64,000 nt of DNA from Allostella vacuolata (GTDB lineage Bacteria; Pseudomonadota; Alphaproteobacteria; ATCC43930; Allostellaceae). Numbering within the stretch: position 1 is the first letter of the stretch; the number at the start of each line of letters is the position of its first letter. The position numbers were made by a program, and so were the translations under genes. The notes beneath the pieces were generated by a model. It saw only the letters and a program-made list of their open reading frames with translations, was not told where the DNA came from and searched no databases. Location: assembly GCA_006739055.1 (NCBI GenBank), contig AP019702.1, forward strand, positions 62,001-126,000. The letters are read 5' to 3'. Positions 2,749-22,646 of this stretch are shown piece after piece.

Positions 2749-3456
2749 TCACATGCCGAGATAGGCCCGGCGCACCCGGTCGTCGGCGCGCAGGGTCCGG
2801 TTGTCGCCCTCGAGCACGACCCGGCCGGCTTCGAGCACATAGCCGTGGTCGGAGGATTCCAGCGCCTCGGCCACCCGCTGCTCGACCAGCAGGACGGTGA
2901 GGCCGGTGTCGCGGCGGATCTCGATCAGCTTGTCGAAGATGAAGTCGGCGATCGCCGGGGCGAGGCCCATCGACGGCTCGTCCAGCATCAGCAGCTTGGG
3001 CGAGGAGGCGAGGCCGCGGCCGATCGCCACCATCTGCTGCTCGCCGCCCGACAGCGTGCCCGCGAACTGGCCGCGCCGCTCCGCCAGCACCGGCAGCCAG
3101 CTGAAGATGCGCTCGATGTTGCGCTTCCAGTCGCGCCGGCCGGCGGCGGTGAAGGCGCCCATCTCCAGGTTCTCCAGCACCGTCAGGGAGGGGAAGACCT
3201 GGCGCCCCTCCGGCACGTGGGCGATGCCGAGATGGGCGCGCCGGGCCGCCGGCAGCGCCAGCAGATCGGTGCCCTCGAAGGTGATCCGGCCCTCGCTCGG
3301 CCGGACGATGCCGGAGATGGTCTTGAACAGGGTCGTCTTGCCGGCGCCGTTGGGCCCCACCACCGCCACGAACTGCCCGGCGTCGACGGCGAGCGACACG
3401 CCGCGCAGCACGGGGACCGCCGAGTAGCCGGCGACGACGCCTTCAAGCCGGAGCAT
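2749..3456 (-). CDS. livF: ABC transporter ATP-binding protein, LivF family
   Basis: A 235-residue ATPase subunit of a branched-chain amide-type importer. Walker A is GPNGAGKTT at residues 34-42, the signature LSGGEQQMVAIGRGLA lies near residue 135, and Walker B is LLMLDEP. LivF proteins are short and lack the extra helices of LivG, as here. Its start overlaps the last 14 bases of the livM-livG fusion gene, which indicates translational coupling and equal supply of the two nucleotide-binding subunits. The substrate-binding protein gene follows 67 bases downstream. Confidence 0.93.
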   Translation of the reverse strand: MLRLEGVVAGYSAVPVLRGVSLAVDAGQFVAVVGPNGAGKTTLFKTISGIVRPSEGRITFEGTDLLALPAARRAHLGIAHVPEGRQVFPSLTVLENLEMGAFTAAGRRDWKRNIERIFSWLPVLAERRGQFAGTLSGGEQQMVAIGRGLASSPKLLMLDEPSMGLAPAIADFIFDKLIEIRRDTGLTVLLVEQRVAEALESSDHGYVLEAGRVVLEGDNRTLRADDRVRRAYLGM

Positions 3457-5200
3457 TGGCCATCCATTTCTTCCCGAGATAGGCCTCGATCACCCGGGGA
3501 TCGCGGGTCACCGCGGCCGGCTCGCCGTCGACCAGGACGGCGCCGTGGTCGAGGACGACGAAATGGTCGACGAGGCGGACCATGGCCTGCATCGTGTGCT
3601 CGATGATGACGATGGTGATCGCCTCGCCGGCCAGCCGCCGGATCACCGCCACCACCTCGTCCGCCTCGCCATGGCCGAGCCCGGCCAGGGTCTCATCGAG
3701 CAGCAGCAGCTTGGGCTGGCCGGCGAGCGCCCGGGCCAGCTCCATCAGGCGCAACTCCTTGGTGGTCAGCGCGCTGGCCGGCCGGTCGGCGATGGCGCTC
3801 AGGCCCACCCGTTCGATCGCGTCGGCGGCGAGGCGGCGCGCCTCGGCGTCGGTGCGGGCGCGGACATAGGCGCCGACCACCACGTTCTCGGCGATCGACA
3901 TGCGCAGGAAGGGCCGCATCACCTGGAAGGTGCGCCCGACGCCGAGCCGGCACAGGGCGTGCGGCTTGAGCCCGGTCGTGTCCCGGCCTTCGAACTGCAC
4001 TTCGCCGGCGCTGGGCGGCAGGAAGCCGTTCAGCAGGTTGAAGAGCGTCGTCTTGCCGGCGCCGTTCGGGCCGATGATGCCGAGGATGGCGCCCTGCGGC
4101 ACGTCGAAGCTGACGTCGCGCACCGCCTTCAGCCCGCCGAAGGACTTGGACAGGTTGCGCACCCGCAGGACCACCGGCGCATCCGAGCCGGGCGGCGTGC
4201 GCGGCGGTAGCGCGGCCGGCTCGGTCGGGACGGCGGCGCCGGTCGTGGCCGCGGCACCTGCCCGCCGGCGCCAGCGGTCGCGCAGCTTCCAGTAGATGCC
4301 CTCCGGCGCCAGCAGGATCACGCCGATGATGGCGAGGCCGAAGATCACCCCCTGGATGCCGGGCACCCGCGCGCCCAGCTCGGCATGCAGCACCTCGGCG
4401 ACCGGGATCAGGATGGCGGAGCCGATCACCGGCCCCCAGACGCTGCCGATGCCGCCGAACATGGTGACGGTCAGCGCCTGGGCGGACACCAGCATGCCGA
4501 ACACCGACGGCGGGGTGACGACCAGCAGGACTACCGCGTAGAAGCCGCCCACCATCCCGGCAATGGCGCCGCTGACGGCGATCGAGCGCAGCTTCCAGGC
4601 GAGCGTGTCGATGCCGGCCGCCTCGGCCGCCGCCTCGTTCTGCTTGATCGCCAGCAGGGCCCGGCCGAAGCGCGAGCGCTCGATCGCCAGCGACAGGACC
4701 ATCACCGCGACCAGCAGGCCGAGCGCCAGCAGGGTGTAGATGCGGTGGTCGGAGAACTGCATGTAGGCGGCCGGGTTCTCGCGCTTGATCGGCAGCGTGA
4801 GCTCCTGGTAGCCGAGCCATTCGAAGACGTAGAGCAGCGCCAGCGGGTAGGCCAGCATGGCCAGCGCGAAGTAGTGCCCGCGCAGCCGGAAGGTCGGGTA
4901 GCCGATGGCCAGCCCCGCCGCCCCGCCGATCAGGGCGGAGGCCGGGATCATCAGCCAGGGCGACAGGTCGAAATGGTTCTGTCCGAGCGCGGTCGCATAG
5001 GCGCCGAGGCCGAAGAAGGCGGCATGGCCGAACGAGACCAGGCCCGTGTACCCGCTCAGCACGTTCCAGGAGAGGCCGAAGCAGGCCCACACCAGGACCA
5101 GGGTCAGCATCAGCTGGTAGTAGGAGTTGGTGACCGCCAGCGACAGCAGGGCGAAGCCCGCCGCGAAGGCGAGGATCGGCAGGAACGAGCGGAACTGCAT
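3443..5200 (-). CDS. fused LivM permease - LivG ATPase of a branched-chain amide-type ABC importer
   Basis: One 585-residue polypeptide joins two proteins that are usually separate. Residues 1 to about 310 are a LivM permease with eight or more hydrophobic segments (GLSWNVLSGYTGLVSFGHAA near residue 45, the conserved EAAAEAAGID loop about residue 200). A Pro/Ala/Thr-rich linker of about 35 residues follows. Residues 346-585 are a LivG ATPase with Walker A GPNGAGKTTLFNLL near 378, the diverged signature LTTKELRLMELARAL, and Walker B LLLLDE. No stop codon or internal ribosome site separates the halves. The ATG at 5200 lies two bases after the livH stop. Such M-G fusions are known in some proteobacterial liv operons and fix one permease half to one ATPase half. 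Confidence 0.92.
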   Translation of the reverse strand: MQFRSFLPILAFAAGFALLSLAVTNSYYQLMLTLVLVWACFGLSWNVLSGYTGLVSFGHAAFFGLGAYATALGQNHFDLSPWLMIPASALIGGAAGLAIGYPTFRLRGHYFALAMLAYPLALLYVFEWLGYQELTLPIKRENPAAYMQFSDHRIYTLLALGLLVAVMVLSLAIERSRFGRALLAIKQNEAAAEAAGIDTLAWKLRSIAVSGAIAGMVGGFYAVVLLVVTPPSVFGMLVSAQALTVTMFGGIGSVWGPVIGSAILIPVAEVLHAELGARVPGIQGVIFGLAIIGVILLAPEGIYWKLRDRWRRRAGAAATTGAAVPTEPAALPPRTPPGSDAPVVLRVRNLSKSFGGLKAVRDVSFDVPQGAILGIIGPNGAGKTTLFNLLNGFLPPSAGEVQFEGRDTTGLKPHALCRLGVGRTFQVMRPFLRMSIAENVVVGAYVRARTDAEARRLAADAIERVGLSAIADRPASALTTKELRLMELARALAGQPKLLLLDETLAGLGHGEADEVVAVIRRLAGEAITIVIIEHTMQAMVRLVDHFVVLDHGAVLVDGEPAAVTRDPRVIEAYLGKKWMANAPA

Positions 5201-17800: not shown

Positions 17801-18777
17801 CCGCGCCGGCTCTTCTGGAGGTCGAGAACCTCCGCATCGACCTGGTCGGCGAGGAGACCCGCCATGCGGCCGTGGAGGGCGTCTCCTTCCGCATCGGCAA
17901 GGGGGAGACGTTCGGCCTGGTCGGCGAATCGGGCTGCGGCAAGAGCATCACCGCCCTGTCGATCATGGGCCTGCTGCGCCATCCCCTGGCGATCGGCGGC
18001 GGCGCCATCCGGCTCGAGGGCAAGGAGATCCAGAGCCTGCCGCCCGGGCAGATCCGCCGCCTGCGCGGGCGCAAGATCGCGATGATCTTCCAGGAGCCGA
18101 TGACGGCGCTGAACCCGCTGTCGCCGGTCGGCCGCCAGATTGCCGAGATGTTCGTGCTGCACCAGGGGGCAAGCTGGTCCGAGGCCAACGCCAAGGCGGT
18201 CGAGGCGCTGCGCCAGGTCCGCGTGCCGTCGCCCGAGCGCCGGGTGAAGGACTTCCCCCACCAGCTGTCGGGCGGCATGCGGCAGCGGGTGATGATCGCG
18301 ATCGCGCTCGCCTGCGGCCCCGACCTGCTGGTGGCGGACGAGCCCACCACCGCGCTGGACGTGACCGTCCAGGCCGAGATCGTCGACCTGATGCGCGAGC
18401 TGTGCGCCGCCAACGGCACGGCGATCCTGATGATCTCCCACGACCTGGGGCTGGTCGCCAACATCTGCCGCCGCGTCGCCGTCATGTATGCGGGCCGGGT
18501 GGTGGAGGAGCAGGCGGCCGACGAGGTCTTCCGCCATCCCCGCCATCCCTACACGCGCGGCCTGGTCGCCTCGCTGCCGCTGCTGGGCAGCCGGGCCGCC
18601 CATGGCCGGCGCAAGCTGGCGGAGATCGCCGGCACGGTGCCGGCGATCGCGGCCTACCCCAAGGGCTGTCGCTTCAACCCGCGGTGCGGGCTGGCGACGG
18701 AAATCTGCCGGGTCGAGGATCCCGCGGCGACGCCGCTCCCCGGCGACGGCCTGGTCCGGTGCCACCATCATGACTGA
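17797..18777 (+). CDS. dipeptide-type ABC transporter ATP-binding protein, DppD family
   Basis: A 326-residue ATPase. Walker A is [10 protein letters not shown] near residue 45, the signature [16 protein letters not shown] near 155, and Walker [13 protein letters not shown] near 175. The C-terminal oligopeptide-transporter extension ends with the cysteine-rich [19 protein letters not shown]. It begins inside the dppC-type stop codon and its own end overlaps the start of the DppF-type gene, so all subunits are coupled. Confidence 0.93.
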
Positions 18778-19810
18778 CCTGTCGATGACCGAGACCGAAC
18801 CCTCGCGTGCCGCGGCCGCACCCCTGCTGGCGCTCGACGACCTGGCGGTGCACTACGCGGTCACCGGGCGCATGGGCACCGGCCGGCGCATGCTGAAGGC
18901 GGTCGACGGCATCGACCTCGACGTCAAGCCGGGCGAATGCCTGGGCCTGGTCGGCGAATCGGGCTGCGGCAAGTCGACCCTGGCGCTGGCGATCATGGGC
19001 CTGGTGCCACCCACCCGCGGCCATATCCGCATCGCCGGACAGGACATCGGTGCCAAGGACCGGCCCGACCGCAAGCTGATGGCCCGCACCGTCCAGATGG
19101 TGTTCCAGGACCCGTACGCCTCGCTCAACCCGCGCCAGACGGTGCGCCGGACGCTGGCCGATCCCTTGCGCCTGCATGGGGTGACCGACCGGGCCGAGAT
19201 CGAGGGGCGGGTGGCCGACATGCTGGCCCGGGTCGGCCTGCGGCCGGAGCATGCCGACCGCTACCCGCACGAATTCTCGGGCGGGCAGCGGCAGCGCATC
19301 GGCATCGCCCGGGCGCTCATCCTCAAGCCGCGCCTGGTCATCTGCGACGAGCCGGTGTCGGCGCTCGACGTCTCGATCCGGGCCCAGATCATCAACCTGC
19401 TGCTGGAGCTGAAGGACGAGCTGGGCCTGTCCTACATCATGATCTCGCACGACCTGGGCGTGGTCGAGCACATGAGCGACCGGGTGGCGGTGATGTATCT
19501 CGGCCGCATCGTCGAGCGCGGCGGCTGGCGCGAGATCTTCGAGAATCCGCGCCACCCCTACACGCGCGCCCTCATCGCGGCCATTCCCGACCCCTTCCGC
19601 CAGCACGCGGCCACCGCCCGCGACAAGGCCAAGGGGGAGATCGCGAGCGCCCTCAACCCGCCGTCCGGCTGCCATTTCCACCCGCGCTGCCCGATGAAGC
19701 AGGATCGCTGCACGGTCGACGTGCCGACGCTCGACCCGGTCACCGCCGGGCATGGCGACATCGGCCACTGGGCCGCCTGCCACTACGCGGACCGGGTCGG
19801 CGCCGCCTGA
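18770..19810 (+). CDS. dipeptide-type ABC transporter ATP-binding protein, DppF family
   Basis: A 346-residue ATPase, second nucleotide-binding subunit of the importer. Walker [17 protein letters not shown] lies near residue 65, the signature [17 protein letters not shown] near 170, and Walker [13 protein letters not shown] near 190. The C-terminal [15 protein letters not shown] is the oligopeptide-ATPase tail. It starts eight bases before the end of the DppD-type gene and is the last gene of the operon. Since the Aap permeases upstream lack their own ATPase, one could ask whether these ATPases serve both, but the families differ and this is unproven. Confidence 0.93.
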
Positions 19811-19906
19811 TCCCGGCCGCTGTCGGCCGATGGTTGCGCGAATCACGCTTGGAGTCCTGGACGGAACAAATCAGGGACATTTGTTGCGATCCGAGGTTCG
19901 TGATTC

Positions 19907-20126
19907 TTGGACCTGTCGCGAAAGCTGGAAATCCTCGCCGATGCCGCCAAGTGCGGCGCTTTCTGTGCGTCGAGCGGCACGGAACGGCTCGGCTCCACTA
20001 CCGGCATAGGCATCTGCCCTTGCTGCACGTCCCGCTGTCGCGGCCCGCATCTTCCTGATCCTCCAGGACCGCTCCGATGCGCGCCGGCTGCCCGGGCATG
20101 GCCGGCATCCCTCGTTGGCGCTCTGA
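19907..20126 (+). pseudogene. remnant of a radical SAM DNA modification/repair protein (TIGR03916-like)
   Basis: From a TTG at 19907 the frame reads MDLSRKLEILADAAK, then FCASSGTERLGSTTGIGIC. From memory of the family this is the N-terminus of the putative DNA repair radical SAM protein whose gene usually precedes DUF4130-UdgX fusion genes. After about 37 residues the match stops: the next expected segments, including the CxxxCxxC iron-sulfur site of this roughly 400-residue enzyme, are absent. A second frame closes with a stop at 20124-20126, just before the next start, and may hold the old C-terminus. About nine tenths of the gene is missing, so it cannot be functional. Confidence 0.6.
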
Positions 20127-20129
20127 CCG

Positions 20130-20237
20130 ATGCCGGCGGTGCTGAGCGTGCATCCGGCGGACGATGCGGGGCTGGAGGAATGGCGCGCCGCCCTCCGTCC
20201 CATGCCGGCCACCGGCATCCCGCCCGTCTCAAGGTGA
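20130..20237 (+). pseudogene. N-terminal remnant of the DUF4130 domain once fused to UdgX
   Basis: An ATG at 20130 opens a 35-residue frame that contains DDAGLEEWRAALRPMPATGI and PPV before a stop at 20235. It resembles the first residues of DUF4130 (TIGR03915) proteins, which start with a short beta strand and an EEWR-like helix ending in GIPP or GVPP. In the neighbouring frame, from about 20216, HPARLKVKAMLTEMP and then NLPEA match the last part of the same domain. The roughly 200 residues in between are gone, and the junction is out of frame. The gene therefore looks like a fusion whose first domain was deleted internally. Confidence 0.55.
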
Positions 20238-20242
20238 AGGCG

Positions 20243-21004
20243 ATGCTGACGGAGATGCCGCGGTGCCACTGGTGCAACCTTCCCGAGGCCGGGCGGATTG
20301 ACCGTCTGATCGCATCCGCCACCGCCCGAGCCCGGGACATGGTCAAGTCAGCCGCCGCCAACCCCAACCGCAACCCGAATCGCCCGACTCCGCGGGCGGG
20401 TGTGGACGCTGCGCCGGCCGAGGGGCTGCCGGCCATCCGCTCCGATGCGCGGGAATGCCGCCGCTGCCCGCTATGGCAGGCGGCGACGCAGACCGTCTTC
20501 GGCGAGGGGCCGGCCGATGCCGTTCTGATGCTGGTGGGCGAGCAGCCGGGCGACCAGGAAGACCTGGCCGGACGCCCCTTCGTCGGCCCGGCCGGGCAGG
20601 TTCTCGACGCGGCGCTGGCCGCCGCGGGCATCGACCGCGCCGCGGTCTACCTGACCAATGCGGTGAAGCATTTCAAGTTCACCCCGCGCGGCAAGCGCCG
20701 TATCCACCAGCGCCCCGACGGCGGCGAGATCGAGGCATGCCGGTGGTGGCTCGCCCGGGAACTGGCGGCCGTGCGTCCGCGGCTGGTGGTGGCCCTGGGC
20801 GCGACGGCGGCCCACGCCTTGCTCGGCCGGCCGATGGCGATCGGCCGCAATCGCGGCCGGCCCATTCCGACCGGGGATGGCGCGCCGGTGCTGATCACCG
20901 TCCATCCCTCCTACATCCTGCGGGTCCCCGATGCCGGCGCCCGGGAACGCGAGCGGATGGCGTTGGTGGCGGACCTGAAGGCGGCCGCGACGGTCGTGCG
21001 CTAG
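20243..21004 (+). CDS. UdgX-type uracil-DNA binding protein/glycosylase
   Basis: A 253-residue frame holding a family 4-like uracil-DNA glycosylase fold of the UdgX type. Key motifs are CRRCPLW near residue 71 (iron-sulfur cysteines), GEQPGDQED (motif A form typical of UdgX), NAVKHFKF, the diagnostic loop KRRIHQ whose histidine forms a covalent bond with uracil in characterised UdgX, EACRWWL, and HPSYILR (motif B). The catalytic core from about residue 60 on is intact. The first 50 residues are the tail of a DUF4130 domain whose body is deleted. The start is uncertain: ATG 20243 is used, with ATG 20339 possible. It would bind or remove uracil in DNA; only the fused partner is lost. Confidence 0.8.
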   Translation: MLTEMPRCHWCNLPEAGRIDRLIASATARARDMVKSAAANPNRNPNRPTPRAGVDAAPAEGLPAIRSDARECRRCPLWQAATQTVFGEGPADAVLMLVGEQPGDQEDLAGRPFVGPAGQVLDAALAAAGIDRAAVYLTNAVKHFKFTPRGKRRIHQRPDGGEIEACRWWLARELAAVRPRLVVALGATAAHALLGRPMAIGRNRGRPIPTGDGAPVLITVHPSYILRVPDAGARERERMALVADLKAAATVVR

Positions 21005-21097: not shown

Positions 21098-21343
21098 TTA
21101 CCGCCAAGCCGGGCGGCCGAGGTTGACGTCGCGGGGCGAGGTCAGGGCGCCGGTCGCGGCACCGGCCGCGCCGCCCAGGACCGCGCCGCCGAGGACGCTG
21201 CCGCCCGTCAATCCGCCGATCGCCGCACCACCGGCGGCGCCGAGCGCGCCACCGCTGAGGGCGCGATCACCCTGCGAATAGCCGCAGGCGGAGAGGGCGA
21301 GAACACCAGCGAACAGGACACCGGCCGTCGTGAACTTCTTCAT
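21098..21343 (-). CDS. small glycine-zipper lipoprotein
   Basis: An 81-residue protein with a lipoprotein signal peptide: MKKFTTAGVLFAGVLALSAC, where LSAC is the lipobox and Cys20 the acylated residue. The mature part is a glycine-zipper repeat (GGALGAAGGAAIGGLTGGSV and on), a membrane-inserting pattern seen in small outer-membrane or periplasmic proteins. It ends with a short polar tail. AGGAGGTT lies just before the ATG. Function is unknown; similar proteins are common envelope components. It is monocistronic with terminators after it. Confidence 0.85.
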   Translation of the reverse strand: MKKFTTAGVLFAGVLALSACGYSQGDRALSGGALGAAGGAAIGGLTGGSVLGGAVLGGAAGAATGALTSPRDVNLGRPAWR

Positions 21344-21547
21344 GAGAACCTCCTTCGATCAACGTTCCTACTTGCCTACAACGGCTGGATCTGGACCGGA
21401 ATGTGGCGCCATGGCGACAAAGCCAGGACATTTTTCCGTTGCGTCAGCCGAATGAAATCCAAGTATTCCCGTGGTGGATATCTCCGGGATGGATCCGTAT
21501 CTCTGATACCGTCGGACCGTGGATTCTAGGTCCAATCTGGTAGAGGC

Positions 21548-21600
21548 TCCGGAATTCCCGAACATATTATCAAACGGTACGATGGGAATTCGGTTCCGGA
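21548..21600. repeat. compound inverted repeat upstream of ureD
   Basis: The left arm TCCGGAATTCCC (21548-21559) is answered by GGGAATTC (21584-21591) and TTCCGGA (21594-21600). The right arm is the reverse complement of the left but with five extra bases between its two halves. The 24-base centre is AT-rich. It may be a regulator-binding region; no known consensus is evident. Confidence 0.4.
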
Positions 21601-21740
21601 CTGTCCGAGGAATCGTCTTCACGATATCTTGTGCCAGGGCGCCCGTTCAAAGCGATCTGGTGCGCCTTGCTGCAGGTGCCCGCCCACGCGGCCTGGCCGG
21701 GAGCGCGTGCGCCGGTCGAATTGGTACGGTCCGCCCGGCC

Positions 21741-21755
21741 TGGCATGATGCTAGC
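21741..21755 (+). promoter_or_regulatory. candidate sigma-54 (-24/-12) promoter element
   Basis: TGGCATGATGCTAGC has the invariant GG and GC separated by ten bases, and differs from the consensus TGGCAC-N5-TTGC at two positions. Nitrogen-controlled sigma-54 expression would suit a urease operon. The predicted transcript start would lie only about four bases before the ATG used here for ureD, which argues against it unless translation starts further downstream. Confidence 0.25.
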
Positions 21756-21770
21756 CTGTGCGGGCCGCCC

Positions 21771-22646
21771 ATGCCGCCCGTCCCACCCGACGTCACCTGG
21801 TCCCAACCCTCGCCGCCGGCGTGCCTCCAGCGCAGCGATGGCGCGGGCCGCCTGCGCTTCGTCGCCGACCATGGCCGGACCCAGGCGACCGGGCTCTACC
21901 AGAGCGACCCGGTGCGTTTCCTCTTCCCGCTGCCGGAACGGGGCGAGCCCCTGCCGGCGATCCTCGTCACCACCTCGGGCGGGCTGGCGGGCGGCGACCG
22001 CGTCCGAATTTCGCTGGCGGCCGAGCCCGGCGCCGTCGCCACGGTCAGCACCCAGGCGGCCGAGAAGGTCTACCGCTCGACCGGTCCGGTCACCCGTTTC
22101 GATACGACCATCGCGGTCGCCGCCGGTGCCTGGCTCGAATGGCTGCCGCAGGAGACCATCCTCTTCGACGGCGCGCGCTTCGCCCGCACGACCGAGGTCG
22201 ACCTGGCGGCCGGTGGTCGGCTGCTGGCGATCGAGATGCTGGTGTTCGGCCGGCGGGCACGGGGCGAGGCCTTCTCCTACGGCGCGCTGCGCGACGACTG
22301 GCGGCTGCGCATCGACGGGCGGCTGACGTGGGCCGATGCGCTGCGTCTCGACGAGCCGCTGGCGCCGCTGTTCGCCGCCCGGGCCGGCCTCGACGGCGCG
22401 GCGGCGATGGCGACCTTGATCCTGGCCGGGGAAGGCGGCGCGATCGCGCGTGACGCGATCCGGGACGCGGCCGAGGCGCATCCGGCGGTGCGCATCGGCG
22501 CGTCGGTGCTGGGGCCCGTCATGGTTGCCCGCTTTCTGGGCAGGGATGCCCGCGCCCTGCGCGATGCCGTGGTGCAGGCGGTCGGGCTGGTGCGCAATCG
22601 CCTCGCCGGGCTGTCGGAGCGCCTGCCCGATCTGTGGTACGGATGA
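21771..22646 (+). CDS. ureD: urease accessory protein UreD
   Basis: A 291-residue urease maturation factor, which with UreF and UreG forms the complex that opens the apo-urease for nickel insertion. Diagnostic segments are LVTTSGGLAGGDRVRI near residue 68, TQAAEKVYRSTG near 97, WLEWLPQETILFDGARF near 123, and RDAVVQAVGLVRNRLAGL near the end. The region before residue 20 is variable in the family, and the ribosome site is weak, so the start is uncertain. It leads the operon ureD-AB-C-E-F-G. Confidence 0.93.
   Translation: MPPVPPDVTWSQPSPPACLQRSDGAGRLRFVADHGRTQATGLYQSDPVRFLFPLPERGEPLPAILVTTSGGLAGGDRVRISLAAEPGAVATVSTQAAEKVYRSTGPVTRFDTTIAVAAGAWLEWLPQETILFDGARFARTTEVDLAAGGRLLAIEMLVFGRRARGEAFSYGALRDDWRLRIDGRLTWADALRLDEPLAPLFAARAGLDGAAAMATLILAGEGGAIARDAIRDAAEAHPAVRIGASVLGPVMVARFLGRDARALRDAVVQAVGLVRNRLAGLSERLPDLWYG

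Follow-up and report, generated by a model that had tools for sequence, protein, structure and literature searches.

In the Alphaproteobacterium Allostella vacuolata, an open reading frame at 19907-21004 (plus strand, 365 aa, TTG start) ends in a complete UdgX protein, before which lies the wreckage of a radical SAM gene and of DUF4130. This locus is the ruin of an SOS-type operon of a radical SAM gene and a DUF4130-UdgX fusion gene, in which UdgX has been kept, at a probability of roughly 80%, as a working gene. The locus lies in a 64,000-nucleotide stretch of contig AP019702.1, called the window here. An intact counterpart at the same place in a sister species makes the history of the scar readable, and a second congener carries a reciprocal ruin of the same operon, which is the most interesting part of the finding.

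Results

The scar read against an intact congener

The genus is represented by four genomes in our comparison. In one of them (G001) both the radical SAM gene and the 471-aa DUF4130-UdgX fusion are intact, at the same site and between the same ABC transporter and lipoprotein genes, so that the scar in the window is legible base by base (Table 1). The upstream transporter gene is syntenic in all three congeners (the flanks have 91% nucleotide identity to G001), and the small lipoprotein gene downstream is syntenic in G001 and in a second congener, G002. The window and G001 agree in where the locus and its operator lie and in gene order and strand, and the DNA of the UdgX core is 78% identical; the window differs in having only fragments of the radical SAM gene and of DUF4130, and a damaged LexA operator.

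Table 1. Features of the decayed operon and its flanks (window coordinates)
Feature	Position	Strand	Basis or remark
Upstream flank: oligopeptide-type ABC transporter ATP-binding gene (ABC_tran + oligo_HPY)	18770..19810	+	Pfam, synteny
Damaged LexA (SOS) operator GAACAAATCAGGGAC	19864..19878	-	Half-sites: GAAC intact, the other GGAC
Radical SAM (TIGR03916) N-terminal remnant, ~38 codons, with 21-nt internal deletion	19907..20019	+	Profiles, alignment
Radical SAM C-terminal remnant (LLHVPLSR...RSDARRL...), TGA at 20124	20020..20126	+	Base alignment to G001
DUF4130 (TIGR03915) N-terminal remnant MPAVLSVHPADDAGLEEWRAALRPMPATGIPP, out of the UdgX frame	20130..20226	+	Alignment, HMM
CCGCCCG, junction of the ~550-bp DUF4130 deletion	20220..20226	+	Comparison with G001
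DUF4130 C-terminal remnant PARLKVKAMLTEMPRCHWCNLPEAGRIDRLIA, in the UdgX frame, under relaxed constraint	20219..20314	+	Profile, codon models
Likely present-day UdgX gene, 253 aa (ATG 20243) or 249 aa (ATG 20255)	20243..21004	+	ORF, Shine-Dalgarno scoring
UdgX core, intact	20416..21001	+	Profile, motifs, alignment
Downstream flank: small lipoprotein gene	21098..21343	-	Synteny

Aligned to G001, codons 1 to ~45 of the radical SAM gene are kept, less the 21 nt; ~950 bp are then missing, and this gap joins the N-terminal piece to the C-terminus, which bears a further deletion of ~39 nt. In DUF4130, ~550 bp are missing between the start of the domain and its end, the latter lying in the UdgX frame; as 550 is not divisible by three, the frame changes within DUF4130. 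The lost segment is flanked in G001 by two copies of CCGCCCG, 550 bp apart, and such a sequence at both ends suggests a deletion between short repeats, of which it is the usual mark. As read from this alignment, the deletions, the smaller indels and the base loss in the LexA box are shown to have occurred in the source lineage after its split from G001.

Profile searches agree with the alignment. Positions 1-35 of the TIGR03916 profile match residues 3-37 of the open reading frame (E=7e-5), and positions 220-243 of TIGR03915 match residues 105-128 (E=0.04; both NCBIfam). To gauge chance, our own HMMs, built from ~70 relatives, were run against a six-frame translation of the entire window: the top radical SAM match is this reading frame (E=4e-8; runner-up 4.6), and the top two DUF4130 matches are this frame (0.007) and the out-of-frame piece 20127-20234 (0.22). 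The DUF4130 matches are individually weak, but we hold the identity of the remnants to be beyond reasonable doubt because their order, their strand and the base-by-base match to the intact locus of G001 all concur.

What remains is far from either enzyme. There is no full-length TIGR03916 protein with CxxxCxxC, since only profile positions 1-35 and the C-terminal piece are left and the cysteine motif lay in the deleted segment; within the N-terminal piece, YDAS, whose residues are kept in all 65 relatives, has become CGAF. Of the ~220-residue DUF4130/TIGR03915 domain only the ends persist, in different frames. A family search of the complete genome found no other copy of TIGR03916, TIGR03915 or PF13566 (DUF4130).

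A sequence-only reading of the window, made beforehand, had listed the radical SAM start, the DUF4130 start and, out of frame with it, a DUF4130 end fused to UdgX. All of these fragments are real, and alignment with an intact related locus, the check that it had proposed, confirms both family relations; it had overlooked the radical SAM C-terminus, with which the remnants beyond the frame or gene of UdgX itself number three instead of two. Its two internal deletions correspond to the two large ones, to which smaller indels have to be added.

In G001, an MFS-like transporter gene lies between the lipoprotein and ureD genes, and G002 has two small ORFs there, which we take to resemble an RHH antitoxin/ParE-like toxin pair. 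The window holds neither at 21350-21830, and a search of its lipoprotein-urease interval for a remnant of the G001 MFS gene gave nothing convincing. Judged by gene content, this interval is a site of repeated gene turnover.

An intact UdgX

The UdgX core quoted as intact in the sequence-only reading is so. TIGR03914 matches residues 131-359 of the open reading frame (E=1.9e-100), and the window encodes CxxC at 20456, motif A GEQPG (with Q after E) at 20537, TNAV at 20654, the R-loop KRRIH with the nucleophilic histidine at 20693, and motif B HPS (HPSYILR) at 20903. The family 4-type iron-sulfur cysteines (CxxC and a later C; alignment columns 14, 17 and 109) are all present. Against the solved structures of Mycobacterium smegmatis UdgX (PDB 6AIL, 6IO9 and 6AJO) the match has E=6e-55 to 9e-55, with GEQPG, KRRIH and HPS aligned. 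In that characterised stand-alone enzyme, E52 activates H109, which bonds to C1' (PMC10359453). The two proteins are alike in standing alone and in conserving these motifs and the iron-sulfur cysteines. The M. smegmatis protein, the founding member, is without sign of partner loss, whereas that of the window would, with a start at 20243, have an N-terminal tail derived from DUF4130. Shine-Dalgarno scores are not decisive as to the start: TTG 19907 scores best, ATG 20243 and ATG 20255 are weak to moderate, and ATG 20339 is poor. From its motifs and conservation, UdgX is very probably a working gene.

Elsewhere in the order, a well-supported UdgX clade (L007 in G003, L108 in G026 and L114 in G015) is without the CxxC pair and has Y for the third iron-sulfur cysteine, with GEQPG, KRRIH and HPS/AY kept; two of the three lie within intact radical SAM/DUF4130 loci. 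This clade would be a UdgX without an iron-sulfur cluster.

Selection on UdgX and on the remnants

Codon models (own script, GY94-type, F3x4) were fitted in which the branch leading to the source genome had its own omega. For UdgX, two fits gave a branch omega of 0.07 and 0.077, not above the background of 0.10-0.12, and omega=1 was rejected (2dlnL 23 and 20); as this branch also spans the time before the deletions and part of the constraint is thus older, the result means that UdgX has not relaxed like its neighbours, not that present-day selection is proven. The joined remnants (70 codons) gave a branch omega of 0.14 against a background of 0.047, and omega=1 was not rejected (2dlnL 2.8); the DUF4130 tail alone differs from background (2dlnL 8.7). 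Had UdgX relaxed in step with the remnants, its omega would be expected at roughly 0.19, a value disfavoured at a 2dlnL of only 4.8.

Among the 59 UdgX columns that are near-invariant (at least 95% of 98 relatives), two are broken, both likewise in G001 and none on its own branch, and the remnants break 4 of 37. The contrast is modest (Fisher p=0.02, or 0.2 when columns shared with G001 are counted). Both the alignment to G001 and this constraint on UdgX, absent from the remnants, bear out the earlier suggestion that UdgX was kept open.

The LexA operator

SOS control of uracil-DNA-glycosylase repair operons is known for COG1573-COG4277 in Bacteroidetes and has been reported for Alphaproteobacteria (PMC8565304). 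Among 65 named loci that have a radical SAM gene, 60 carry an exact alphaproteobacterial LexA box, GTTCN7GTTC on either strand, in the 200 bp upstream of that gene, against a chance expectation of 1.7 from random segments of the same loci. Exact boxes stand before the operon in two congeners, GAACAAATAGGGAAC in G001 and GAACATATAGGGAAC in G002. The decayed operon of the window is not preceded by the exact box typical of the alphaproteobacterial SOS regulon: the box at 19864, placed 43 bp before the start codon like the exact GAACN7GAAC of G001, has one mismatch in a conserved half-site. All four congeners, the source genome included, carry LexA and, upstream of lexA, an exact box, so that SOS control in itself has not been lost; judging from the operator, LexA probably no longer holds UdgX expression tightly. 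Other exact matches to the LexA box in the window lie at 302, 14131 and 56849, and about two are expected by chance in 64 kb.

A mirror-image ruin in a sister species

In G002 the operon has decayed at the same position (L132, reverse strand, ~3090-4520; flanks as in the window), and here too the radical SAM gene is destroyed: ~15 codons at its start and parts of the C-terminal half are left. The rest is unlike the window. DUF4130 is open for ~215 residues, up to a frameshift from a short tandem duplication, and constrained (1 of 33 near-invariant columns broken; branch omega 0.04, neutrality rejected), whereas UdgX is reduced to a single recognisable fragment of 24 residues; the breakpoints differ and the LexA box is exact. 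Since the radical SAM pieces that G002 keeps are for the most part ones that the window has lost, and vice versa, neither state can derive from the other and the decays are independent. In G003, the syntenic site holds no trace of the operon. The stand-alone UdgX of that genome was considered as a relic of the operon and rejected, being located elsewhere and grouping with other sequences.

UdgX without partners

All three parts lie close together in 65 of the 80 nearest named loci. Nine others have no radical SAM gene within 4 kb, although three of these nine have one elsewhere in the genome; six have UdgX alone, and the family search found neither partner elsewhere in those draft genomes. Across the order, UdgX scores above the family cut-off in 19 of 43 genomes, TIGR03915 and TIGR03916 above theirs in only 3 of the 19. 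The UdgX tree requires 11 changes for the orphan state, some of them possibly regains, and at least 6 are forced by well-supported branches.

One proteobacterial MAG (L088, 271-1092 of contig JAFEEZ010000392) resembles the window in that UdgX is preceded only by a DUF4130 C-terminal tail, LKEMPRKYWKNMPETALVPALI, and in that neither DUF4130 nor the radical SAM protein was found elsewhere in this partial genome; unlike the window, it is a short draft contig without an intact relative at the same position from which the deletion could be read.

Discussion

A ~950-bp deletion took most of the radical SAM gene, iron-sulfur cysteines included, and a ~550-bp deletion at the 7-bp repeat took most of DUF4130 and shifted the frame. 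Smaller indels wore down the remaining pieces, and one conserved base of the LexA operator was lost. UdgX stayed open; none of its catalytic motifs is missing, and its branch shows purifying selection. Translation may now begin at an internal ATG (20243 or 20255) and give a stand-alone protein of ~250 aa. The intact motifs predict that this protein recognises uracil in DNA, cuts it out and remains covalently linked to the abasic site, the KRRIH histidine presumably forming the bond after activation by the GEQPG glutamate, as in other stand-alone UdgX proteins.

It is unlikely that the whole locus is neutral debris, with UdgX on its way out and spared so far by chance alone. The survivors differ by species, G002 having lost UdgX and kept DUF4130 open, G003 has nothing at the site, and the operator in the window is damaged; that the surviving part differs also weakens the case for UdgX as a privileged part. 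Against neutrality, none of 57 near-invariant UdgX columns has a lineage-specific break, the omega of UdgX is ~0.08 beside visibly relaxed pieces of the locus, and stand-alone UdgX persists in many lineages.

Quite improbable, in our judgement, is that the full 365-aa frame from TTG 19907 is a new chimera of the radical SAM N-terminal tail, out-of-frame junk, the DUF4130 tail and UdgX. The frame is open throughout and its start has the best Shine-Dalgarno score of the candidates; yet the 105 residues before the DUF4130 tail stem from pieces that belong to other frames and from a remnant whose invariant residues are broken, chance long open frames are common in this GC-rich DNA, and such an N-terminus occurs in no relative. 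An assembly or sequencing artefact hiding an intact locus is very improbable: one deletion does end in a short repeat, but the genome is complete in one contig (5.83 Mb), it has no second copy, and several separate deletions would have to be explained together with accumulated substitutions at invariant residues of the remnants.

The reading as an eroded operon with UdgX kept is thus the one that we prefer. The scar is unusually legible, but its kind is ordinary: operon erosion that leaves a protein known to act alone. The independent decay in G002, the LexA box and the frequency of orphan UdgX make it a well-preserved case of repeated operon breakdown rather than evidence for a new capability. 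The locus had been put forward as a natural experiment in keeping UdgX without its partners; since UdgX without partners is common, the experiment confirms what was known and shows nothing new, and in view of G002 UdgX is not specially privileged.

To our knowledge, the biological role of the radical SAM/DUF4130/UdgX operon is not settled, and among open-access papers on DUF4130 with UdgX we found no functional study of the pair. It is possible, if doubtful, that the genus dismantles this SOS repair operon in different ways, selection keeping UdgX in one species and DUF4130 in another. If so, the two fused domains would be separable in function and the radical SAM enzyme would not be needed. 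Intact, UdgX-only and DUF4130-only versions at one syntenic site in sister species offer a ready comparison of each part alone. The repeated orphaning of UdgX agrees with what is known in vitro, where it can act alone, and the presence of UdgX in a genome implies neither the partner enzymes nor SOS control.
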